Part shown: in pieces, positions 26,858 to 60,921 of the stretch
Layout of the letters: every line of letters begins with the position of its first letter
Position numbering within the stretch: the first letter of the stretch is position 1
NCBI GenBank assembly: GCA_030424715.1
Contig: JAUHWH010000002.1
Span: 62,001 to 126,000, forward strand
Reading direction: 5' to 3'
Length of the DNA: 64,000 nucleotides
Source: Bdellovibrionia bacterium
Lineage (GTDB): Bacteria; Bdellovibrionota; Bdellovibrionia; Bdellovibrionales; JAGQZY01
The notes under the pieces: generated by a model
Told to the model about the DNA's origin: nothing
What the model saw: the letters and a program-made list of their open reading frames with translations, nothing else
The model's database searches: none
Program-made: the position numbers and the translations under genes

Positions 26858-29800
26858 TTATGGAGCGGCTAACTGAATTTCGGCCACACCAAAGAGACCA
26901 TTCTGCGAGAAAATAAACTCCAAGCGATCAAGGTTGGCATTGATACTCATGGTCTTACCGTCACAAGAGATTGTTGGCGACGGCCAAGTCAATGGGCTCT
27001 CAGTGGCGGCGTTAACGTCTCGTCGATAAATACGCCCGTCAGTGGCGCAGTAGTAGATGATGGGATCACCCGACTCCACCCGATAGGTGAAAGCGCGTAT
27101 GGATTTCTCAGTGTTCGTCAATGTCGAAATGTTACCCGCCTGCCCCGCCACAGACGGAATCGCTGCAATGCGATTTTGCCCTCTTCGAAGCACTAACCAT
27201 TGTGAATTCGTCGCGTCCCACTGAGAGCCACCTTGAGCTCCCCAAGCGTGTTGCGGAAAAACATTTGTTGTTTCCATATCGGTGCCATCCGCAGGGAGAG
27301 CACCGTTATTGGAGGGAGCATCAGCGCCGATAAAATGACGCTGAATAAAGGTCGTATTTTCAAAAGCTTTCACCATACCCTTCTCGTGAATACCGCTCCA
27401 GTGAGAGGTTGAAGCCAGGAGGCGCAAGTCGCTATCAAACCCCAACATCGACCATCCGATGTAGTGCACCCTAGGCGTCGAAGTCCCGTCAGCATCCCAG
27501 TAAGAGGAACCGCATCCCGTCAAAACGTTATCCCACACACCCGTGCTGCGATTGAGTTTGATGGGTTGAGCGCAACCGAAACCTGAAGTGCCCTGAATAT
27601 AGATATCATTTGTTACGGGATGAACGGCCAGAAATCGCGCCTGCGCCCAATTGTGAGACTGGAAACGATTTGTCGCTGCCACATTGCCCACGGCTGGTAC
27701 TCCGAGTGTTCCATTACCAGCGAGCTTAACGATATTCCCAGATCGGGGAACCTCCCATAGAAAACCGTGGATGTGATCGTTGATGACAATCTTGTCTCCC
27801 GCTGAAGGTTCGATCTGCTGAAGAGCTGGAAAGCGAATCGCTAATGGATTGGATATCGATTCAGACGACAAGGGTTGTCCAAATAACGTCTTTACTTTTC
27901 CATCAACAATAGTTCTAACCATGCCGTTGTCCAAAAGGTAGATTTGTTCGTTGCTGTCGACGAAAACATCTTCGATGGTGTTGTCACAAGATGTCGCTAC
28001 AGTGTCGTCCACACAGCGACCATAGACTCCCGAGCCAAACACCACCGTCCATGTGTTGGCGGCCTTGTCCAGCTTGTAAACTCTCTTGCAACGTTCGCTA
28101 AATGTATAGATGTTTCCAGCAGGTGATCGAAATTTTGTATCGCGGCCGTAGTTGTCGACACAACCCAAAGGACGATGGGGACCCGCACCAAAAGAAAGTC
28201 CCGTGTTTATATCAAAACTCACCGCATAGGCTCGTCGCCCTCCGGTAACAGGTTTATTAACACGAGCAAAATACTCAGTGACATTTCCGGCGCCGTCGAA
28301 ATCCAAACCGATACCATCAAACCGTTTATCATTTATTGTATCGGCGGCATCACCCAAACGCCCCACACCTGTTAGCTCAATATGATAAACCCTACCGTCT
28401 GAGACTTTAAAGTGTTTCAGGCGAAAACCAGAATCCGGTGTCGCGCCGGCACTGCCATCGGTAAAATAGAGATCGTTGTTCGGAGCAATCATAAAAGTGC
28501 TATGGGACGTGCCCAATGAGTAGGCTGATCCAAGAGTGCCGGAGGATGCACTGCCTCCACCACCGATTACGGTGTTTAAAGTGCCATCAGTCTCGACCCG
28601 TAAAATGCGATTGTGATCATAGATATAGAGTCGATCTAGCTTATCAATGGCAATGCGAGTCGGATTTCTCAGCGTGGCTTGGCCTGCGGGCCCACCGTCT
28701 CCAGTGAAGCTACCCGTTTTGGGGATATACGAAGTGAGTAGCCCCGTGCTGGGGTCTATTTTTAAAATCCCTCTTTTATAATCTTTAAAGTAAAAGACAC
28801 CATTGTTATCCACCACCAAAGAGTTGGGGTCACTGGCCTCATTGCTGACGAAGGAATAGAGCACTGCACTGGTCGCGCTTCCACCCAATCCGGGGTCCGT
28901 GTTTCCGGCAATGACATTAAAATTTTGAGTGTTCAAACCAGATGTACTACTCAGGGTTTTTAGACTGGCTGAATCCGTGACTTCGATTCTCACTTTAAAG
29001 TATCCGGCTGGAGCACCAGGGGAGGTCCAAACATAGCAGCCTGTAAAGGGAGAGCCGCTGGCCGTGCATCCCCCCGTAGCCTGGTTCTCTAACCCCGAAT
29101 CAATGACTGTAAAGGTTTGCTCATCGGTTGTGTAATACAGATTAATAGATCCTGCCGGCAAAGCATAGTCATCAGAGATGTGCCATTTGATGTAAACCGA
29201 CTGACCGCCCGAGAAACTGGTTTGCGCCACTGACGGCTGTGCCGTCGACGAATCGTCGTTGGTGGCGACGATGGCCGCAACAACGGGTGCCGTACCTGGT
29301 TCATATTGAATGGTGTAAAGATCGGTATTCAAGGTTCCATTGCCAGAGCTTGATAAGATGCTCACGTTACCGGCCTGATCTTTTACAAAGGCCTTTATGT
29401 TAAAAAAACCGGCACTAAATCCCAAAAGATAATTCGGTACAGTTGCCGTAACCGAAGTGGCGACCGATTGACCAAGAGACACGACGGATGTCCAACAAGA
29501 GTCCCCTGCTTGTGGTACGGTGGTCGACTTCATTAGACAAATATGAGAGACACCCGACAGATTGTCTTGGCTCTCCATGGTCGCACTCACATAAAAACTA
29601 TCGGTCATCAAAGCACCGCTGTTCACCTGTAGTGCAGTCGCATTGGGCGCCGTACTGTCCATGGTGAAATCAGAAGAGCTAGAAGCGTCAGCACAGTTTC
29701 CGGCCTTATCACAAGCATGCACTTGAAAACGAACCTGATTCGAGTCGATCTCTGGTAGAGTCCAAACATAGCTGCTTGTGTTGCTTTCACCGCTAGCAAT

Positions 29801-31795
29801 GTCTGTCCACGAAGCTCCGGAGTCAACAGAGTAACGAAGTGTTATTGGTGTCGCCAGCAATCCACTTCCGGCATCGGAGGCTGAGTAACTCACCGTTTTC
29901 TGATTGAGAGCGGGTATTTGACTGGAGTTTCCAGATAATGTTTGACCACCACTCAACGAAAAAAGACTCATCACTGGGGCGACTTGATCGACTTCTACTG
30001 AAAAACTACCGGCGACTGATATGTTACCTGCAAAATCCCTAGCGAAACTATAGATGGTGCGATTGCCATCACCTGCAGTAAGTGTCAGCGATCGATCCAC
30101 AACCGTCGAACAGTCTTGCCAGCGAAGATCGACCAAAGACGGCTCGGTGGCACTTTCGCTTAAGAAGATCTCTGAAGTGTCCGTGCAGTTTTGCGAGAGC
30201 ACCGACACCAAAAGTTGATTGCTGATAGCCGGCGTTTGAAGAGTCAATGAAGGCGCTGCCGGCTTTTGCGAGTCGATCGTCCAAGAGGGCGACTGCATAG
30301 TTGTGCTATTACCCGCCTGATCACTCACCACGAGACGCAATTGCACTTGTGATGAGTTCACAGCTGGCACCGTCCATGTGTGAGCGCCATCATCTGGTGA
30401 TCCACTCACAACACTTAGCCAATTGCTGCCGCCATCGATACTATAATCAATATTAACGCTGTCTTTCAGAGACTCGGTGGTGTTCCATTGAATATCAAAG
30501 CTTTGCCCGCCACGCAGATTCAAACTCGAAAAGTCAGAGACCCACTGCACTTGCGGGGCTGTGGCATCATAGTGAACGGTGACCTCGCGCGGAGTTTCAG
30601 AAATCTGACCTGCACTGTCACGGGCCCAGAGATGCAAACGTCGTATCCCCTCCGCTCCAGAAAGGCTAAATGTGAAGTCTTGGGTGCTGGCTTGGGCACA
30701 ATCCAATGAAGCATAAGAACCCTGGTCCGATGGCGCGGTATAAGATTCATTAGGACTGCTTTCAACTATGGTCAGACCGGAGAAGCTCTGGCAAAAAGAC
30801 GGACGCCCATCAACCATGGGTCCTGTGGCAAGGCGTAGGGACACCCCTTGTTGATTGGTTACCGCTGAGGATTGCCGCGTTAAGACCGGCGGCACGGCGG
30901 GCTGATCGTTACTAATTTCAATATTAAACGTGCGCTGTGCATAAGGTTTGGCAAAGTCAATAGCACCGGAACCATTGTCAGAACCGACAAACAACTGCAT
31001 GATGTGGTAACCTTGCTTGTCAGCCGATGGCTTGTAGAGCATTTGCTGGGAGGAAGACAAAACGTCACTTCCCAAGCGCCACATGAAGGCTGGCTGGTAA
31101 GTGGCGGACCAATGAACCACTGAGACGGCAAAAGTCGCCCCCACCCCTTCTTGCAACTGACTCTTGCTCACTGTGCGAACCAGTTTCGGGGGGGCGTCTT
31201 TAAGAGCTTGCAACTGGATTCCAAAGTCACTTTCAAATCGGGCTTTTAGCGTCGAATCTGAAGCCAATGTGGAAAAGGCCTGAGTCAAAGAACTCATTTC
31301 TCCGATCTTAGAAAAAAACTCATCCCACTGAGCTGCTGGCAAAGATTTTAGTTTTGATTGCGCTTCTGTTTCTAAAACCCAAGCCATCACTGTTGAGGTG
31401 TGACCAATGTTTTGGTTTTGAGCATTGGTAAGAAAACGTTGATAGAAAATGTCGTTGCATGAAAACTCAAGGAGGTAGCGGGTGGACGTCTCGCGAGAAA
31501 GCTTGATGGCTTCAGCGACGGCTGCACTCACTGATATTTGGAACTCTCCTCTCTCATCGATGGTGCCCGCACCCACAGGGGTGCGAGAGTCTCCGTCTTC
31601 TAACCTAAAAAGAGAGACTTTTTCACTGAGACAAGAGGATTGGCTCTGCAGACTCGCAGAATTATTGACCCCCTGCACTTTACCAGAGATCGACTCAAAA
31701 GAATTGGCAAACCCAACTTTAAGCTCTTCAGAACACCCCATCACTAAGAGGCTTCCGACGACCATTGCTACCCATTTTTTGAGGTGAAGTACCAT
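26858..31795 (-). CDS. Giant lipoprotein with Ig-like repeats and NHL-like propeller
   Basis: A 1645-residue surface or periplasmic lipoprotein with the lipobox LLVMGC at about 17-22. From about 390 to 960 it has a series of Ig-like beta domains, recognisable by repeats such as YSIDGGSNWLSV, AGNSTTMQS and AGNISVAG. From about 965 it has propeller-like segments (GVFYFKDYKRGILKIDPSTG, NPTRIAIDKLDRLYIYD). Large proteins of this build are typical adhesins or surface proteins; binding partner unknown. It follows ybbP by 69 nt on the same strand and may be exported or managed by that system. Confidence 0.82.
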   Translation of the reverse strand: MVLHLKKWVAMVVGSLLVMGCSEELKVGFANSFESISGKVQGVNNSASLQSQSSCLSEKVSLFRLEDGDSRTPVGAGTIDERGEFQISVSAAVAEAIKLSRETSTRYLLEFSCNDIFYQRFLTNAQNQNIGHTSTVMAWVLETEAQSKLKSLPAAQWDEFFSKIGEMSSLTQAFSTLASDSTLKARFESDFGIQLQALKDAPPKLVRTVSKSQLQEGVGATFAVSVVHWSATYQPAFMWRLGSDVLSSSQQMLYKPSADKQGYHIMQLFVGSDNGSGAIDFAKPYAQRTFNIEISNDQPAVPPVLTRQSSAVTNQQGVSLRLATGPMVDGRPSFCQSFSGLTIVESSPNESYTAPSDQGSYASLDCAQASTQDFTFSLSGAEGIRRLHLWARDSAGQISETPREVTVHYDATAPQVQWVSDFSSLNLRGGQSFDIQWNTTESLKDSVNIDYSIDGGSNWLSVVSGSPDDGAHTWTVPAVNSSQVQLRLVVSDQAGNSTTMQSPSWTIDSQKPAAPSLTLQTPAISNQLLVSVLSQNCTDTSEIFLSESATEPSLVDLRWQDCSTVVDRSLTLTAGDGNRTIYSFARDFAGNISVAGSFSVEVDQVAPVMSLFSLSGGQTLSGNSSQIPALNQKTVSYSASDAGSGLLATPITLRYSVDSGASWTDIASGESNTSSYVWTLPEIDSNQVRFQVHACDKAGNCADASSSSDFTMDSTAPNATALQVNSGALMTDSFYVSATMESQDNLSGVSHICLMKSTTVPQAGDSCWTSVVSLGQSVATSVTATVPNYLLGFSAGFFNIKAFVKDQAGNVSILSSSGNGTLNTDLYTIQYEPGTAPVVAAIVATNDDSSTAQPSVAQTSFSGGQSVYIKWHISDDYALPAGSINLYYTTDEQTFTVIDSGLENQATGGCTASGSPFTGCYVWTSPGAPAGYFKVRIEVTDSASLKTLSSTSGLNTQNFNVIAGNTDPGLGGSATSAVLYSFVSNEASDPNSLVVDNNGVFYFKDYKRGILKIDPSTGLLTSYIPKTGSFTGDGGPAGQATLRNPTRIAIDKLDRLYIYDHNRILRVETDGTLNTVIGGGGSASSGTLGSAYSLGTSHSTFMIAPNNDLYFTDGSAGATPDSGFRLKHFKVSDGRVYHIELTGVGRLGDAADTINDKRFDGIGLDFDGAGNVTEYFARVNKPVTGGRRAYAVSFDINTGLSFGAGPHRPLGCVDNYGRDTKFRSPAGNIYTFSERCKRVYKLDKAANTWTVVFGSGVYGRCVDDTVATSCDNTIEDVFVDSNEQIYLLDNGMVRTIVDGKVKTLFGQPLSSESISNPLAIRFPALQQIEPSAGDKIVINDHIHGFLWEVPRSGNIVKLAGNGTLGVPAVGNVAATNRFQSHNWAQARFLAVHPVTNDIYIQGTSGFGCAQPIKLNRSTGVWDNVLTGCGSSYWDADGTSTPRVHYIGWSMLGFDSDLRLLASTSHWSGIHEKGMVKAFENTTFIQRHFIGADAPSNNGALPADGTDMETTNVFPQHAWGAQGGSQWDATNSQWLVLRRGQNRIAAIPSVAGQAGNISTLTNTEKSIRAFTYRVESGDPIIYYCATDGRIYRRDVNAATESPLTWPSPTISCDGKTMSINANLDRLEFIFSQNGLFGVAEIQLAAP

Positions 31796-37861: not shown

Positions 37862-38829
37862 CAGTTTCGGACCTCGATATTAAAATTCACCGTGGCCTTG
37901 TTGTTTTGAATCACGTTGTCGATCAAATTGTCTTGTTCCAACTGCGGAGTGTTGACGACATCACCACCATCCACAATTTGAGGGAGATCGGGAAGGTCGT
38001 CCACATCGATCTCCGCACCCAGGTCTCCCGTGTCTCCCATGACGTCTTGCTCGATTTCTTGAACGACATCGTCTAGCGAGGGAGAGACCGAACTGGGTGC
38101 TCTTTGCTCTCTTGAAGGCGGTTTGGAGGCGTGTTCACGCCCCTTCACCTCACCGGCTTTGGGGCTGTCTTTTTTGGCCCCTCCTGTGCTCGGTGAAGAG
38201 TTCACATCGGGCACTTTCGTGTCACGGTCCATTTTTTGAACTTGGTCTGCCGTCAGTTTTTGGGGCTCATGGGGCTTTTGATTATCGCCACTGCCAGTAA
38301 AAAAACCGGCACGCACTTGCACGTCGGGGCGGTAGATCCCATTGGTACTATTACCCACAGCAACCACCCCCGAAAATGTCACGATTCGAGTTTCATGGGT
38401 GACAGGGTTGTACCCCGTGACAAAGTCGGTCCCTCGTACTCCTGCTACAGCCGTCTTGGTTTTGACTCGGTAGTGGCTTTCATCGTCGTCCTGATACTTG
38501 TTATTGACCTGAGACCGAATACGTCCGTATTCGACTTTGAGAAGCACCTTCTTATTATCAAGGGTTTCAAAAACCATTTCGGTGTCTGGAGAAATATTGA
38601 TTTCATCAGTGGATGGTAAAACGATCTTAGCCCTCGAGTCAGGCCCCGTCTTGATGATGTCGCTGATGCAGATCTTATGATTTTTTCGAGCTTTGCGAAA
38701 CTTTTTCTGTCCTTGTCTTTTGAGTTTCACGTCGCGCTTCACGACCCGTAACAGTCCACAATCCTCAGCCCGGGCAGAGAAAGAGAAAAAAAGAAAAGCA
38801 AGGGAAAGACTTTTGATAATGACCTTCAT
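37861..38829 (-). CDS. FecR-domain exported protein
   Basis: A 322-residue protein with a signal peptide and a FecR domain (about 35-150) including GDSR-like TGPDSRAKIVLPS, EYGRIRSQV and the typical TKTAVAGVRGTDFVT. A long Pro/Ser/Asp-rich tail follows, ending in a strand NKATVNFNIEVRN. Unlike regulatory FecR it has no cytosolic part, so it is probably a periplasmic or surface scaffold. The start is ATG at 38829, overlapping the preceding stop (TGATG), and GTG at 38832 is an alternative. Confidence 0.85.
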   Translation of the reverse strand: MKVIIKSLSLAFLFFSFSARAEDCGLLRVVKRDVKLKRQGQKKFRKARKNHKICISDIIKTGPDSRAKIVLPSTDEINISPDTEMVFETLDNKKVLLKVEYGRIRSQVNNKYQDDDESHYRVKTKTAVAGVRGTDFVTGYNPVTHETRIVTFSGVVAVGNSTNGIYRPDVQVRAGFFTGSGDNQKPHEPQKLTADQVQKMDRDTKVPDVNSSPSTGGAKKDSPKAGEVKGREHASKPPSREQRAPSSVSPSLDDVVQEIEQDVMGDTGDLGAEIDVDDLPDLPQIVDGGDVVNTPQLEQDNLIDNVIQNNKATVNFNIEVRN

Positions 38830-41165
38830 CACGGCACCCCCGTGCCCGTAACACCGTGGTTTAGCACCTGTCCAGACACCCCATCGGTGTAGTTGATAAC
38901 CAAAGTGTCATTGTAAACCGTCATTCCCGGCGGCGCGAAACTGACGGTAACAGTACAACTTCCGCCAGCCACAAGTGTGCCCCCACAGCTACCGCCGGTT
39001 CCGGGAAAGCCGCCGCCACCCAGATAATCAAAAGGTGCTGCCAGTCCGCCAGCGTCAGAGATTCCCGTAGCCGTCACTCCCCCACCGTTTGTTACGGTGA
39101 AAGTCACCGAGCTGCTACCGACCGTGGAGACAGTACCAAAGTCATAAGGATCGCCACCCGTTATAGTCAGTACGGCTGGCGCCAAGCCAGTCCCATCCAC
39201 CAAACGTGAAGCCACTTGCGCCGACGCTCCATCGTTGTACTGAATATCAATGGAACTTGAAAACGTGCTGATGATCGTTGGAGAAAAGGCCACTTCAATA
39301 GTACATGATCCCGCAGGGGACAAGGTGAGTCCGCAAGTTCCCCCCGATCCCGGATAAGATCCTCCGCTGAATTGAAACGGAGAGACTAAGCCGACTTCAG
39401 ATAGTGATGTCGCCGTCGAGCTCCCTGAATTTGTAATGGTAAAAACATGGGCCGCCACAGATCCACTGGGTATCGAGCCAAAATCGTAGGGATCTGACTC
39501 ACTGATCGTCAACAGTGCAGGAAGAATGCCTGTACCTGTGACATCTCGACTTGCTCCTTGAGCCACGGCACCATTATTATAGTTAACCTGGATCGTGTCG
39601 GAGTCAACGCCAGGACTCACTGGCGAGTAGTGAATCTCGATTGAGCATGAGGCTCCAGCAGCGATTGTAACACCACAATTGCCAGATGATCCCGGGTAGA
39701 CTCCTCCAGTGAAGTTGAACGGAGCCGCTAATCCCGCCCCGGACACGGTCGTCGATGACGCGATCGTAGCAGCGACTCCTCCGACATTAGTCACTGTGAA
39801 AATATGACTGGCACTGTTTCCAGTCACAACAGTCCCGAAGTTATAAGGATCTGATTCGGTGATGGTAATATTCGCTGGGGCTACTGCAACTCCATTAATA
39901 CCTCGAGAGCTTACCTGGGCCGCTAGTCCGTCGTTATAATTGATAATCATGGTATCGCTGTCAGAAGCGCTTGGAACAGATGGACTGTAGTCGACAATCA
40001 CCGTACAGGAGGCCGCCGCCGCCAGGGTCGTGCCGCAAGAGCCTCCGCCGGGATATGTCCCGCCGGCAAAATTGAAAGGAGTCGCCAGTCCAGTACCCCC
40101 CATGGCTGTCGCTGCCACTGTTCCGGTATTGGTGATCGTAAAAGTATACTGTTGATTGCCGCCCGCCGGCTGGGTGCCAAAGTTGTAAGTGGGACCATCG
40201 GATATAGCCAACACAGCCGTAGAAGCGGAGGTACCCGTCCCTAAAATATTTTTGGTCAGAGTGCGTATTGTGCCAGAACCGTTGTTATAAGCGAGCGTTA
40301 GGATCTGGCTCGTGCCAGCCGCGGCGACAGGAGTAAACTCAATATCTATTGTGCAAGAAGCCCCAACAATCAGAGTTGAACCACAACTGCCTCCGGTACC
40401 TGGATAGCTGCCTCCCGCGAAGCCGAAAGGAGAGGACAAACCACTGGCGCTCATGGCGCTGACATCTTGAGTTCCTGAATTCGTAATAGTGATCAAAGTT
40501 GTCGTCGAGCTTGCTACGGTTTGAGAACCGAAATCGTAAGCCCCTGACGGGTTGAAGCTAAGCAACCCCGCGCTAGGAGCGGTGCTTGGTGGCTCTTCGA
40601 TTGAATCGAACCGACAATGATCGATCTCTGGATTGGTATTATCAAAAGTGCCGTTGATAACGACGGGAACACTCTGAGCGCCCGTCTTGAAGGTGTAATC
40701 TTTCTGGTGCAGCACCCGCGGAAAACTGTACAAGAGGCTCGGGGGCGAAAAACCATCGAAACTCACACACTCACCCGAGGAGGAACTCATGCCAACAATG
40801 GTGACGGTGCGCAAAACGTCTGACTCTAACTCAATCTCCACAGCACTGCCCGCTGCAATGGCCGAGACGTATCGACCAAAGCGCATCAGCTCTTGATCTG
40901 TGGTTTTTTCATTACAAAAATTGCGTTGATTCGCGGCTTCTGGCCCGCCTATGTATAGGCCATAGCAGTCGATCTCTGCAGCTGTGTTGATCTGGCCGTT
41001 CCAGGTCGAAGAGGTAAACCCATCAACCGAGGCTGCCATCGACCGTTTGTCGACATTACTGACTCTTTCTGGAAAAGCAAAAAACACTTTGGCCCGCGTT
41101 GAATTGTCTTGAGAACAACTCAACAGGAGCAAGCTTAAAATACAAAACACAAAACTGTTTTTCAA
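38829..41165 (-). CDS. Choice-of-anchor-D repeat lipoprotein
   Basis: A 778-residue lipoprotein with the lipobox LLLLSC (Cys at 17). Residues about 200-778 are five repeats of 113-119 residues. Each has a DFG or NFG start, a FTITN(S/T)G strand, a PF.F.GG.(Y/F)PG loop, and two cysteines (SCG/NCG and the SCT/SCS pair) that likely form a disulfide. This is the choice-of-anchor-D Ig-like fold found in large surface proteins. It starts the leftward operon with FecR and the TPR/barrel protein, suggesting a surface complex. Confidence 0.85.
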   Translation of the reverse strand: MKNSFVFCILSLLLLSCSQDNSTRAKVFFAFPERVSNVDKRSMAASVDGFTSSTWNGQINTAAEIDCYGLYIGGPEAANQRNFCNEKTTDQELMRFGRYVSAIAAGSAVEIELESDVLRTVTIVGMSSSSGECVSFDGFSPPSLLYSFPRVLHQKDYTFKTGAQSVPVVINGTFDNTNPEIDHCRFDSIEEPPSTAPSAGLLSFNPSGAYDFGSQTVASSTTTLITITNSGTQDVSAMSASGLSSPFGFAGGSYPGTGGSCGSTLIVGASCTIDIEFTPVAAAGTSQILTLAYNNGSGTIRTLTKNILGTGTSASTAVLAISDGPTYNFGTQPAGGNQQYTFTITNTGTVAATAMGGTGLATPFNFAGGTYPGGGSCGTTLAAAASCTVIVDYSPSVPSASDSDTMIINYNDGLAAQVSSRGINGVAVAPANITITESDPYNFGTVVTGNSASHIFTVTNVGGVAATIASSTTVSGAGLAAPFNFTGGVYPGSSGNCGVTIAAGASCSIEIHYSPVSPGVDSDTIQVNYNNGAVAQGASRDVTGTGILPALLTISESDPYDFGSIPSGSVAAHVFTITNSGSSTATSLSEVGLVSPFQFSGGSYPGSGGTCGLTLSPAGSCTIEVAFSPTIISTFSSSIDIQYNDGASAQVASRLVDGTGLAPAVLTITGGDPYDFGTVSTVGSSSVTFTVTNGGGVTATGISDAGGLAAPFDYLGGGGFPGTGGSCGGTLVAGGSCTVTVSFAPPGMTVYNDTLVINYTDGVSGQVLNHGVTGTGVP
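38832..40565 (-). repeat. Five tandem Ig-like repeats in the choice-of-anchor-D gene
   Basis: Five units of about 345 nt each code for the repeats described in the gene. They are clearly related at protein level but diverged at DNA level, so the array is old rather than a recent expansion. Confidence 0.8.
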
Positions 41166-54347: not shown

Positions 54348-55268
54348 TCACAAGATACAGCTGGGTGCCGAGTAAGACAGAATAATAATGCCACCCGCGC
54401 CACCGGCGCTAGCGGAAACTCCGCCCTTTCCTGCCTGGGCAGGGATGTTGGGAATGGTTATATTGGCTGAATTCGCACCCCAGCCACCATCGGTGCCCCC
54501 GCCAGTTGCCCCTGCGCTTCCTCCGGATGAACCCAAGCCGGTGTGACCACCGCCTCCAGCCCCATAGCCACCGCCGCCGCCGCAGTTATCGGCATTCTGG
54601 GCTCCGCCACTTGCCCCGGAGCCGCCACCGCAGCCACTAGGCACATTACCGCCGAAGAATGCACCGCCGACAGACCCATTAGATCCGGCAGTACCGCCAG
54701 CGACTCCAGTGCCACCTCCACCAGGTGATGAGCCTCCGCCGTTGCCGCCGTTGGCTGCTGCTACTAATGAACCATTCCAGAGGATGGCCGTACTTCCGCC
54801 GCCACCACCTCTGCCGTAGTTGCCAGAGCCGCCACCGAAATAACCAGAGCCACCACCTCCACCATCCCCATAATTATTATCATTGCCAGGGGCTCCTCCG
54901 CCGCCGCCCACATAGGCAGCGAAAGCCGTGCCGCTAGAGCCGGCAGTGAAACTCCCCGTTTTAATCAGTCCGTCTTGTCCAGAGCCCCCACCCTGATCTT
55001 CATCTGCGGCACCGCCGCCGCCACCCACAAGAATGTAGCTCACCGTCACCGAAGAGGGTAGACCTCCCAATGAGTCAGCATCTAAAACTTTTGAAGAGGT
55101 GATCACGGTCACGCAATCGTAAGAGGGTTGGCTCGCGCCACCGCCACCACCGCCACCAACGGTGACCTTTTTCCAGGTGGGGGCACCATTGAGCGAACCA
55201 GGCATCAGAACCAAACCCAATGTCGAACAAAGGGCAAAGAAAGTACGAAATCGAAACTCAACAAACAT
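54348..55268 (-). CDS. Glycine-rich secreted protein
   Basis: A 306-residue protein with a signal peptide (FFALCSTLGLVLMPGSLNGA) and a mature part more than one-third Gly, in runs such as VGGGGGGGAS and GDGGGGGSGYFGGGSG. Three to four cysteines and Asn/Ser are spread within. It resembles glycine-rich domains of the ALK-receptor type seen in bacterial surface proteins. It ends in IIILSYSAPSCIL. Role unknown, possibly structural or adhesive. Confidence 0.72.
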   Translation of the reverse strand: MFVEFRFRTFFALCSTLGLVLMPGSLNGAPTWKKVTVGGGGGGGASQPSYDCVTVITSSKVLDADSLGGLPSSVTVSYILVGGGGGAADEDQGGGSGQDGLIKTGSFTAGSSGTAFAAYVGGGGGAPGNDNNYGDGGGGGSGYFGGGSGNYGRGGGGGSTAILWNGSLVAAANGGNGGGSSPGGGGTGVAGGTAGSNGSVGGAFFGGNVPSGCGGGSGASGGAQNADNCGGGGGYGAGGGGHTGLGSSGGSAGATGGGTDGGWGANSANITIPNIPAQAGKGGVSASAGGAGGIIILSYSAPSCIL

Positions 55269-55395
55269 ACGATACATCATTCTTTAACATCGGCGTTTTC
55301 AGCCCTAACTTAAGAAAGTTCCCACAATGAGACATTAAAAACGTTTTTAACGGGCTATGCTAATGAGCCCCAGCGATCATCAACATTGTGGGTTG

Positions 55396-57690: not shown

Positions 57691-58170
57691 TTGAAACTAT
57701 TGACAATCATCTCATTTCTACTTGTGGCTTGGCAGGCCACGGCGGCTCCAACAGCTGAACAGCCCGATCGTAACGTAGCCTTCTATAACCTTGAGGATGG
57801 CGTCGGCTTAAAGGGTTTTGATCCTGTGGGCTATTTCCCGGGGCACGGCGACGCAGCAATCCAGGGAGATCCGTCGATTTCCGCCACTTACGGAGGCGTT
57901 GTCTACTATTTTAGCTCTCAGGAGAACAAGGAGACCTTTTTAGGCAACCCGACCAAGTTTGAGCCCACCTACGGCGGCTGGTGTGCCTGGGGCATGGCCA
58001 ACGAAGGTTACATCGACATAAGTCCTATGGTATACACCCTTCACGGAAACCGTGCCCATTTCTTCCTCAGTAGAGGAGCAAAGGCGCGATTCGACCGTGA
58101 CCTACTAACCCGCGAAGCCGATGCCGACGTTTTCTGGGAAAGTGAGTCCGGGGAAAAACCAAGATTGTAG
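57691..58170 (+). CDS. YHS-domain secreted protein
   Basis: A 159-residue protein with a signal peptide ending near TAA. The YHS domain (about 40-135) has GFDPVGYFPGHG, ATYGGVVYYFSSQENKETFL and FEPTYGGWCAWGM, as in YHS domain-containing (seleno)proteins. The Cys in GGWCAW takes the place where related proteins sometimes use selenocysteine. These proteins are thought to bind metals or act in redox. The start is TTG after AAGGGGGG. First gene of a four-gene operon. Confidence 0.85.
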   Translation: MKLLTIISFLLVAWQATAAPTAEQPDRNVAFYNLEDGVGLKGFDPVGYFPGHGDAAIQGDPSISATYGGVVYYFSSQENKETFLGNPTKFEPTYGGWCAWGMANEGYIDISPMVYTLHGNRAHFFLSRGAKARFDRDLLTREADADVFWESESGEKPRL

Positions 58171-58198
58171 TTGCAGTTCTTTTTGGGGGGATACGAAA

Positions 58199-59236
58199 AT
58201 GAAGACGCTACTGTTTTTAAGCTTTAGTTTTTTACTGGTGAACTGCGGTAACTACGATCGCAGCCCAGAGATTTTCAACCCCAAAGAGGCGGGTTCTTTT
58301 TCAACAGACTTGGATTTTGCCACCTTAAAAAGAGAAATTCTAGAACCCCATTGCATCAGCTGCCACACCGGCAAACATGCCGCCTATGCCAACTACGACA
58401 CTGTCAAATTGGCGGCGCGTGGCATGTTAGCTCGCATGGAGTCTCAAGACCCTGGACGACAGATGCCGCCTTCCGGCTTCTCACGAGTCCCTCTGGCCCA
58501 GATCAATCGATTTCGAGAATGGGTCAATGCAGGAACACCCGAATTCAAAAACGGCTCACCCGATGCCGTGGCCGTGGAACCGATCGGTTTCTCAGAAGTG
58601 CGCACCCAAGTTTTAAAGAGCAACAATTGCACAGCCTGCCACTCGCAGTACAACGACTACCAGACAGTGTTTAACGATCGTAACAAAATAGCCGCTTCCA
58701 TGGCCTCAGGCTTTATGCCCTTTGCAAAAAGAAAGGGATTACCCACAGCACCAGTGCCCGAAGAGCAGCAAAAACTGTTTTTTAATTGGGTCTCTCAAGG
58801 CGCACCTTTAGAAGCTGAGGGGGCCCCAGGTGTTGCCCAACAGCCAGAGCTACAACCCACCTTTATATCACTGCGCAATCAAGTCTTCGGCCCCAAGTGT
58901 ATTTTGTGCCATAACTCCTTTGCCAGCCGTGGTGGCGGACGGCTCCAGTCGATGGAGAGCTACCAGAACTTACGGAACTGGTTCACAAAAACCACTTCAC
59001 TTTTCAAGTTTAAGAAAAAAGAAGGCGATGCCCCTGGTCTTTTTGTTGAAGCCATCCTGAGAGACCCAGAAGACCCGCTGGCTGTTGTGTTTAGCCCGAT
59101 GCCGTTCAACTCTCCCGACGACGACGTCGAGAAAGACATACCACCTATTACCGAAGACGAGCTCAAGGTCATCCAACAATGGATTGAACTCGAGCTTCCA
59201 TTTGACGAAACGGATTTACCCAAGGAGACAAAATGA
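58199..59236 (+). CDS. Triheme c-type cytochrome lipoprotein
   Basis: A 345-residue lipoprotein (lipobox LLVNC) with three c-type heme motifs: CISCH (52-56), CTACH (144-148) and CILCH (234-238). Methionines that could be distal ligands follow each motif (RQMPPSG, GFMPFAK, SPMPFNS), as in three repeated cytochrome-c modules of about 90 residues. It should sit in the periplasm, anchored to a membrane. GGGGGG lies 8 nt before the ATG. It overlaps the YceI gene by 4 nt. Confidence 0.88.
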   Translation: MKTLLFLSFSFLLVNCGNYDRSPEIFNPKEAGSFSTDLDFATLKREILEPHCISCHTGKHAAYANYDTVKLAARGMLARMESQDPGRQMPPSGFSRVPLAQINRFREWVNAGTPEFKNGSPDAVAVEPIGFSEVRTQVLKSNNCTACHSQYNDYQTVFNDRNKIAASMASGFMPFAKRKGLPTAPVPEEQQKLFFNWVSQGAPLEAEGAPGVAQQPELQPTFISLRNQVFGPKCILCHNSFASRGGGRLQSMESYQNLRNWFTKTTSLFKFKKKEGDAPGLFVEAILRDPEDPLAVVFSPMPFNSPDDDVEKDIPPITEDELKVIQQWIELELPFDETDLPKETK

Positions 59237-59790
59237 AATTTCTAATCATCACTATTGTTGCATCTCTCGCTTTACCCTTCGCCCAGGCTGCCACCCAGTA
59301 TCAGTTTCAACCAGATGCTGGGAAAGTCGTTTTTAAAACCAAGGGTTGGCCAAATCTGGTTACGATAAAGGGCGAAGGCAAAGGTGTCGCGGGCAATCTG
59401 TCAGAGGACACCGGAAAAGTCTCGGGAGAAATTACTTTTCAACTGGCCCAACTCAAAACAGGTATTGAGCTGCGGGACAATCATATGAAGGACACCTACC
59501 TGGAGGTCAAAAAACATCCTGTGGCCAAGATCAAATTGACCAACCTAGAAGTTCCTAAAGATCTCGATGGCTCGTTCGAGTTTAAAGGAATGATGACCTT
59601 GCACGGGGTTGAGAAGCAAGTTTCCGGCCAAGCTGAACTTGAGAACGATTCTGGAAAACTAAAACTTATCGCAGAAATTCCCATCAAATTGTCGGATTTT
59701 AAAATTGCGATCCCTTCGTACCAGGGAATCACCGTCGCGGAGAAGGTTAACATTAGCATCTCTAGCGAAGTCAAAAAGCAACAACTGTAA
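59233..59790 (+). CDS. YceI-family periplasmic protein
   Basis: A 185-residue YceI-like lipocalin-fold protein with a signal peptide (IITIVASLALPFAQA). Conserved blocks are ISFQLAQLKTG-like FQLAQLKTGIELRDNHMKD, HPVAKIKLTN, and LHGVEKQVSG. YceI proteins bind isoprenoids such as polyprenyl quinones. In this operon it may shuttle or bind a quinone near the cytochromes, which is inference. ATGA coupling to the cytochrome gene. Confidence 0.9.
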   Translation: MKFLIITIVASLALPFAQAATQYQFQPDAGKVVFKTKGWPNLVTIKGEGKGVAGNLSEDTGKVSGEITFQLAQLKTGIELRDNHMKDTYLEVKKHPVAKIKLTNLEVPKDLDGSFEFKGMMTLHGVEKQVSGQAELENDSGKLKLIAEIPIKLSDFKIAIPSYQGITVAEKVNISISSEVKKQQL

Positions 59791-59799
59791 GGAAACACC

Positions 59800-60921
59800 A
59801 TGGGTCTACGTCCTCTTTGCCTGGTCATAATTGCTCTTCTTGCCTCATCTACGGCTTTGGGTTTCGTGCAAAACGTCACCCATGGGTACCCGGCCTGCAT
59901 CGCCTGTCATGTCTCACCCAACGGCGGCGGCCTGTTAACAGACTACGGTCGCTCCCTATCTAAAGAGCTGATGAGCACATGGGGTGTGAGTGATAACTTT
60001 GCCCAACCTTTTTTTGGCGCTGTAAAAAATCGCGAGAATGTGAAATTTGGGGGAGATCTTCGGACCCTGCAATTCTATCGGAAAGACAAAACAACCAACA
60101 CGGGCGAGCTCTTCCCTATGCAACAAAACGTGGAAGTCGGCGTGCAAGTGTCAGACAAAGTCATGTTGGTAGCGACGGCTGGGTTGCAACAGGGCCCTCC
60201 CCAGCGCGCGCAACGGATCGGGCAATTTATTTCAGAACGACATTACGCCCTCTGGAGCCCAGCGCCCACCAGTCGAGTGCGTATCGGTAAATTTCGCCAG
60301 ACCTTTGGCATCAACACAGACAACCACACTCGATTTATTAAACAGACCTTCGGATTTGGCTCACTCAGCGAAACCTACAACCTGGAGTTCACCCAATTTT
60401 ACGAAAGCTACGAGGTCACCTTGGGGAGCAGCCTCGGGCGCATAGACAACCCTCGAACCCCACGCACCGAGCAGAACCTGAGTGCGCATTACACTTACTA
60501 CCTGAATGAAAACTCACGGGTCGGAGGCAGCTTGCTCGTCGGAGAGTCTCCGCTCAAACGAAGGACTCTATCCAGTGTTAACGCCGTTTTGCCCTTAAGT
60601 AAAAACTGGATGCTGCTATCAGAGTTGGACTACGAGCGCAGTCACCTTTCTGCATCACCACAAGACGCCATTGAAACGGTGGCTAGTTTTGTAAAGGTGG
60701 GACACACTCTGTTCAAAGGCTTTATGTGGTACCCCTTGTTCGAACATTTCTCGGTAGAGAGCGTGGGTGGCTACACAATGAATCATCAGCCGGGAGTGGG
60801 TATTCAGTGGTGGCCAGTCCCCCACTTGAATGTGCAAGTGGAGTATCTGAGAGAGGTGAAAAATGCGTCTTATGATAACCCAGAAGAAACCGGCTGGGTG
60901 CAATTTCATGTCTACCTCTGA
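59800..60921 (+). CDS. Monoheme cytochrome fused to outer-membrane barrel
   Basis: A 373-residue protein. A signal peptide is followed directly by one c-type heme motif in HGYPACIACHVSPNGGG (CIACH at 33-37) and a short LLTDYGRSLSKE segment. From about residue 75 the sequence alternates as a beta-barrel, with aromatic girdles and a C-terminal VQFHVYL. A heme at the periplasmic mouth of a barrel would suit electron or metal passage across the outer membrane. AAGGAAA precedes the ATG. Last gene of the YHS-cytochrome operon. Confidence 0.82.
   Translation: MGLRPLCLVIIALLASSTALGFVQNVTHGYPACIACHVSPNGGGLLTDYGRSLSKELMSTWGVSDNFAQPFFGAVKNRENVKFGGDLRTLQFYRKDKTTNTGELFPMQQNVEVGVQVSDKVMLVATAGLQQGPPQRAQRIGQFISERHYALWSPAPTSRVRIGKFRQTFGINTDNHTRFIKQTFGFGSLSETYNLEFTQFYESYEVTLGSSLGRIDNPRTPRTEQNLSAHYTYYLNENSRVGGSLLVGESPLKRRTLSSVNAVLPLSKNWMLLSELDYERSHLSASPQDAIETVASFVKVGHTLFKGFMWYPLFEHFSVESVGGYTMNHQPGVGIQWWPVPHLNVQVEYLREVKNASYDNPEETGWVQFHVYL

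Follow-up and report, generated by a model that had tools for sequence, protein, structure and literature searches.

Cyc2 serves as a marker of iron oxidation. It is a fused monoheme cytochrome and 16-strand OprO/OprP-like porin that oxidizes iron, is described as unique in this cytochrome-porin fusion, and is recognized by the motifs AXPXFAR[QK][TY] before and PXL after CXXCH (PMC8406198). In MtrCAB, MtoAB and PioAB a heme protein is also associated with an outer-membrane barrel, of 26 strands, placed round a separate decaheme cytochrome. In most solved structures of the YceI family the ligand is an octaprenyl compound or ubiquinone-8; the function of bacterial YceI is still described as unclear (PMC9113575). 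The YceI protein BcnA and the cytochrome b561 LcoA, which are linked and in some cases fused into one protein, keep lipid peroxidation in check (PMC9113575). A search of open-access papers found none on an outer-membrane redox protein of the kind described below from Bdellovibrionota, none that deals with YceI together with a cytochrome of the outer membrane, and none on the YceI of Bdellovibrio. Bdellovibrio and Cyc2 are both named, though rarely, in six papers.

The window is a stretch of 64,000 nucleotides from a Bdellovibrionia bacterium (contig JAUHWH010000002.1). The genes and the motif considered here are as follows.

57691..58170, + strand: exported YHS protein of the YHS_seleno_dom subfamily; TTG start; NF041384, 91 bits (cut-off 70).
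58199..59236, + strand: CYT, a c-type cytochrome lipoprotein; three CxxCH motifs and a lipobox-like LVNC.
59233..59790, + strand: YceI-family periplasmic lipocalin; PF04264, 83.1 bits (cut-off 23.7).
59800..60921, + strand: BAR, an N-terminal monoheme segment followed by a 16-strand outer-membrane barrel, as predicted by AlphaFold2; OprP/OprO fold.
59896..59910, + strand: CxxCH heme motif of BAR, C33-H37 (CIACH); invariant in 89/89 members.

The arrangement claimed in the original prediction, four adjacent rightward genes, was confirmed. All lie on the + strand in the order YHS-CYT-YceI-BAR, with spacings of 28, -4 and 9 nt, and a ribosome-binding site is recognizable before each. The set is flanked upstream by a 156-nt gap and downstream by a convergent ORF; scans of it for promoters and terminators gave nothing convincing. 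The ORF of CYT begins at 58121 according to a mechanical ORF finder; its most likely start is the in-frame ATG at 58199, which is preceded by a ribosome-binding site, is followed by a lipobox-like signal and fits the 28-nt gap. The lipobox and the signal peptides were identified by visual inspection of the sequences. The heme motifs expected in CYT (CISCH, CTACH, CILCH) and in BAR (CIACH) were read directly, and the expected YceI and YHS identities hold, both curated families being matched over their cut-offs. No in-frame TGA is present in the YHS ORF. CYT is matched weakly by cytochrome c profiles, and its relatives mostly carry one or two CxxCH motifs, against three in the window. Elsewhere, the window encodes an exported, very glycine-rich protein of 310 aa (54348-55280), a HYDIN/CFA65-like Ig-repeat protein of 778 aa (38829-41165) and an NHL/Ig-like protein of 1645 aa (26858-31795).

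BAR is a protein of 373 aa with exactly one CxxCH, at residues 33-37. A barrel after the heme segment, as had been proposed, is returned by structure prediction: the AlphaFold2 model consists of a short helical heme segment and then exactly 16 strands (pLDDT 92.6, pTM 0.87). OprP (Z 24.7) and OprO (Z 24.6) rank first among solved folds in the comparison by VIA-align, with several other 16-strand porins within about 1 Z of them; the top seven Foldseek matches include OmpT, chitoporin and OprP. Sequence profiles of Porin O/P match weakly. BAR is thus like the phosphate-selective porins OprO/OprP (PF07396) in its predicted barrel fold, with a weak sequence signal, and unlike them in its heme segment, which they lack. 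PF07396 does not match the BAR of the window; of the relatives tested, only one lies near the Pfam cut-off. BAR belongs to no named family in Pfam or NCBIfam, and the 89 members gave scattered weak matches only when compared with NCBIfam.

A single CxxCH is present in each of the 89 aligned members of the BAR family. Invariant residues are C33, C36, H37, G42-G44, L46, Y49-R51 and G163; M107 is kept in 88/89 and H176 in 87/89 members. The consensus round the heme is AxPxxxRHGYxxCxxCHxSPxGGGxLTxYGR. In the AlphaFold2 model, H176 is part of the loop that connects strands 5 and 6, at the place where a loop is folded into the pore in classical porins; it may serve as a distal heme ligand or as a pore-site residue. 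The predicted fold is that of OprO/OprP-like substrate porins, and YceI proteins bind hydrophobic ligands (PMC9113575), as would be expected if YceI handled a hydrophobic or anionic molecule that BAR imported or exported, and the BAR heme were structural or a sensor. This function is improbable, since the heme motif is invariant in 89/89 members and the second usual neighbour of BAR is a c-type cytochrome.

BAR shares with Cyc2 (Acidithiobacillus, Zetaproteobacteria, Gallionellaceae; Cyt572 of Leptospirillum) a signal peptide, a single N-terminal CXXCH, a 16-strand OprO/OprP-like barrel, modelled in BAR, a similar length (373 aa in BAR, at least 365 aa as the length criterion of Cyc2) and a c-type cytochrome gene nearby. 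It differs in its YceI partner, and profile comparison gives no alignment of the barrels. The two defining motifs of Cyc2 are absent: AXPXFAR[Q/K][T/Y] is not found upstream of CXXCH, where the window reads GFVQNVTHGYPAC and the family AxPxxxRHGYxxC, and PXL is not found 4 residues downstream, where the window reads CHVSPNGGGLLTDYGR. Assignment of BAR to Cyc2 was rejected on these two motifs. Its description as a new kind of barrel-heme fusion was also rejected, Cyc2 being a precedent; the original prediction that a single-heme barrel differs from the known porin-cytochrome systems is not supported in view of the published Cyc2 (PMC8406198). It does differ from the MtrAB/MtoAB type, which combines 26 strands with a separate decaheme cytochrome, against 16 strands and one fused heme in BAR. 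BAR is filed as a new Cyc2-like variant, a second, unnamed family of fused monoheme cytochrome-porins with presumed heme attachment.

Cyc2 was represented by six Cyc2-type proteins from plasmid records, whose genes are also adjoined by c-type cytochrome genes. Profile comparison of BAR with Cyc2 aligns the heme segments only (E 1.6e-7, 3.8e-9 and 1.3e-8). The combination of a proline at -10 and L[TNS]x[YFV]G[RK] downstream of the heme motif is present in 101/141 BAR and 6/6 Cyc2 proteins, both counts being inflated by the fetching pattern or query, and in 0/282 other CxxCH sites, a count that is not inflated. The Cyc2 seed query was a consensus built on published motifs and biases the motif counts on the Cyc2 side. 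Used by itself, the HMM of the BAR heme segment fails to distinguish Cyc2 from certain other proteins with CxxCH, and kinship is therefore called probable, not shown: judged by sequence, the two heme segments are probably distantly related, and the architecture is shared.

Fourteen matches to the Cyc2 profile were found over 60 whole genomes. By their coordinates, nine fall on BAR heme segments and three on proteins that show Cyc2-like motifs; one of these three is encoded in a frame of 154 aa. The profile has no match in the genome of the window; BAR heme segments of relatives were matched. Because the matches include both families, the order to which the window belongs holds both BAR and Cyc2-like proteins. 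The proteins with Cyc2-like motifs (e.g. ALPAFARRYNVSCSMCH) are those of loci L190, L191 and L192, all in this order; L190 is represented by the 154-aa frame only.

In an oxidase resembling Cyc2, BAR would be reduced by Fe(II) or by a different reductant entering its pore, CYT would pass the electrons inward to periplasmic cytochromes and oxidases, and YceI would be accessory. The architecture shared with Cyc2 (PMC8406198), the relation of the heme segments by profile comparison and the c-type cytochrome genes beside Cyc2 agree with such a function, as do the two heme-copper oxidases encoded in the host genome, which also has a heme c maturation gene. It is nevertheless unlikely: the AXPXFAR and PXL motifs are absent from BAR, proteins with Cyc2-like motifs exist separately in the same order, and YceI as the most constant partner is left unexplained. 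The host genome also encodes no RuBisCO, which counts against the oxidase and makes RuBisCO-based autotrophy on iron unlikely in this organism.

BAR is present by profile in 205/291 Bdellovibrionota genomes, a count that includes some weaker, longer paralogs, and in 168/223 of the good-quality genomes. Of 60 related genomes, 42 carry a relative of BAR. Myxococcota and Acidobacteriota also carry BAR, among the matches listed for named genomes in a scan with a degenerate DNA pattern; the pattern selects for GGGxLxxYGR, and the sample of taxa is accordingly biased towards this motif. The genome of the window has a second copy of BAR, again with CYT and YceI (G000:C16, L045). Two BAR genes, apparently in tandem on the same strand, are present at L164. 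The longer paralogs (L197, L200, L201, L205, L208) are 473-554 aa in length and carry two CxxCH motifs, the second within QGCHVNPxGGGLRxxYG; by sequence they look like a diheme subfamily of fused cytochrome-barrels.

YceI adjoins BAR on the same strand in 66 of the 99 loci with enough upstream sequence among the pattern-scan matches listed, and a member of the CYT family lies within 1.8 kb on the same strand in 55; adjacent YceI is absent in 33/99 and nearby CYT in 44/99. When adjacent, YceI is nearly always upstream of BAR, most commonly with a 4-nt overlap. In the loci of relatives (39 judged), YceI is adjacent in 20 and CYT near in 26. Among the matches listed, YceI adjoins BAR in 18/19 loci of Acidobacteriota and in only 5/11 judged loci of titled Myxococcota. 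Genomes hold only 1-5 YceI genes each (20 genomes checked), and chance adjacency should therefore be well below 1%. The arrangement of BAR and YceI, usually with CYT, recurs across three phyla and is thus not due to chance.

The conserved core is YceI and BAR, with CYT as the usual third partner. The genes are found together in other genomes, and the proposed four-gene set stands for YceI, BAR and usually CYT. It does not stand for YHS, which is only occasional: the order YHS-CYT-YceI-BAR is known from the window and four other loci (L027; L098, Halobacteriovorax; L135, Bacteriovoracaceae; L172, Halobacteriovorax marinus), and YHS was rejected as a core member. At L049, one ORF of 390 aa comprises a cytochrome domain (29-157) and a YceI domain (221-381) and lies 7 nt upstream of BAR; this fusion is good genetic evidence that the cytochrome and YceI work together. 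Families other than YceI and CYT recur in few BAR loci on clustering of neighbours and are treated as lineage synteny. A CsoR-like regulator near three BAR loci was too sparse for use. In CYT relatives near BAR in Acidobacteriota (L070, L076, L077, L112, L142, L163, L168), CxxHHG consistently replaces CxxCH; the heme may have been lost, the site may bind a different metal, or heme may be attached in an unusual way through a single cysteine.

Solved relatives of the YceI of the window are polyisoprenoid-binding proteins, the closest of which include 2FGS, listed as Campylobacter jejuni (PMC9113575). BAR loci are like LcoA-BcnA of Burkholderia in that YceI is linked to a cytochrome gene and in some cases fused with its product; they are unlike it in that this cytochrome, CYT, is a lipoprotein of the c type and that an outer-membrane heme porin is added. 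No cytochrome b561 is linked to YceI in the window, and none is present among the recurring neighbours of BAR. An antioxidant function at the outer membrane, in which YceI-bound quinol would quench lipid peroxyl radicals and BAR and CYT would keep the carrier reduced, has been considered by analogy with the proposal for LcoA-BcnA. The limitation of lipid peroxidation by that linked or fused pair (PMC9113575) and the linkage, once fusion, of a c-type cytochrome to YceI in BAR loci are consistent with it. It is quite unlikely, as this chemistry needs no pore-forming barrel and b561 is missing from the recurring neighbours.

The preferred reading, considered about evenly balanced between right and wrong, is that BAR, YceI and CYT form an outer-membrane electron-transfer unit, with putative attachment and position of the heme, quinone cargo and electron transfer. 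BAR would be a 16-strand OprO/OprP-like porin with one covalent heme c on its N-terminal segment, the heme probably sitting where the pore opens to the periplasm. YceI would be an isoprenoid carrier in the periplasm, most likely for quinone, and would exchange electrons with the BAR heme. CYT would act as an electron relay that connects the periplasmic respiratory chain with YceI and the BAR heme. A small redox-active molecule that enters the pore would give electrons to the BAR heme or take them from it. As no partner is as constant as YceI, reductive flow, directed outward and supplied with electrons by quinol on YceI, is slightly preferred. In favour of the unit are the adjacency of YceI to BAR despite the few YceI genes per genome, the nearby CYT, the cytochrome-YceI fusion at L049, the invariant heme motif, the predicted 16-strand barrel, the heme c maturation gene and heme-copper oxidases of the host, and the published parallels of Cyc2 (PMC8406198) and of YceI with cytochrome b561 (PMC9113575). 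Against it are the loci in which adjacent YceI or nearby CYT is absent, among them more than half of those judged in Myxococcota for YceI. Of the roles first suggested, the handling of electrons, quinone or metal near the outer membrane, electrons or quinone are the most plausible, and nothing points to metal specifically.

At the scale of the phylum, BAR and YceI might represent a second class of fused monoheme cytochrome-porin in which electrons cross the periplasm on quinone carried by soluble YceI and not only along a chain of cytochromes; this generalization is tentative and somewhat unlikely. BAR is a second family with the architecture of Cyc2, present in most sampled members of Bdellovibrionota, a phylum of predatory bacteria. 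Its link with YceI provides a concrete, testable partner for the widespread YceI lipocalin family.
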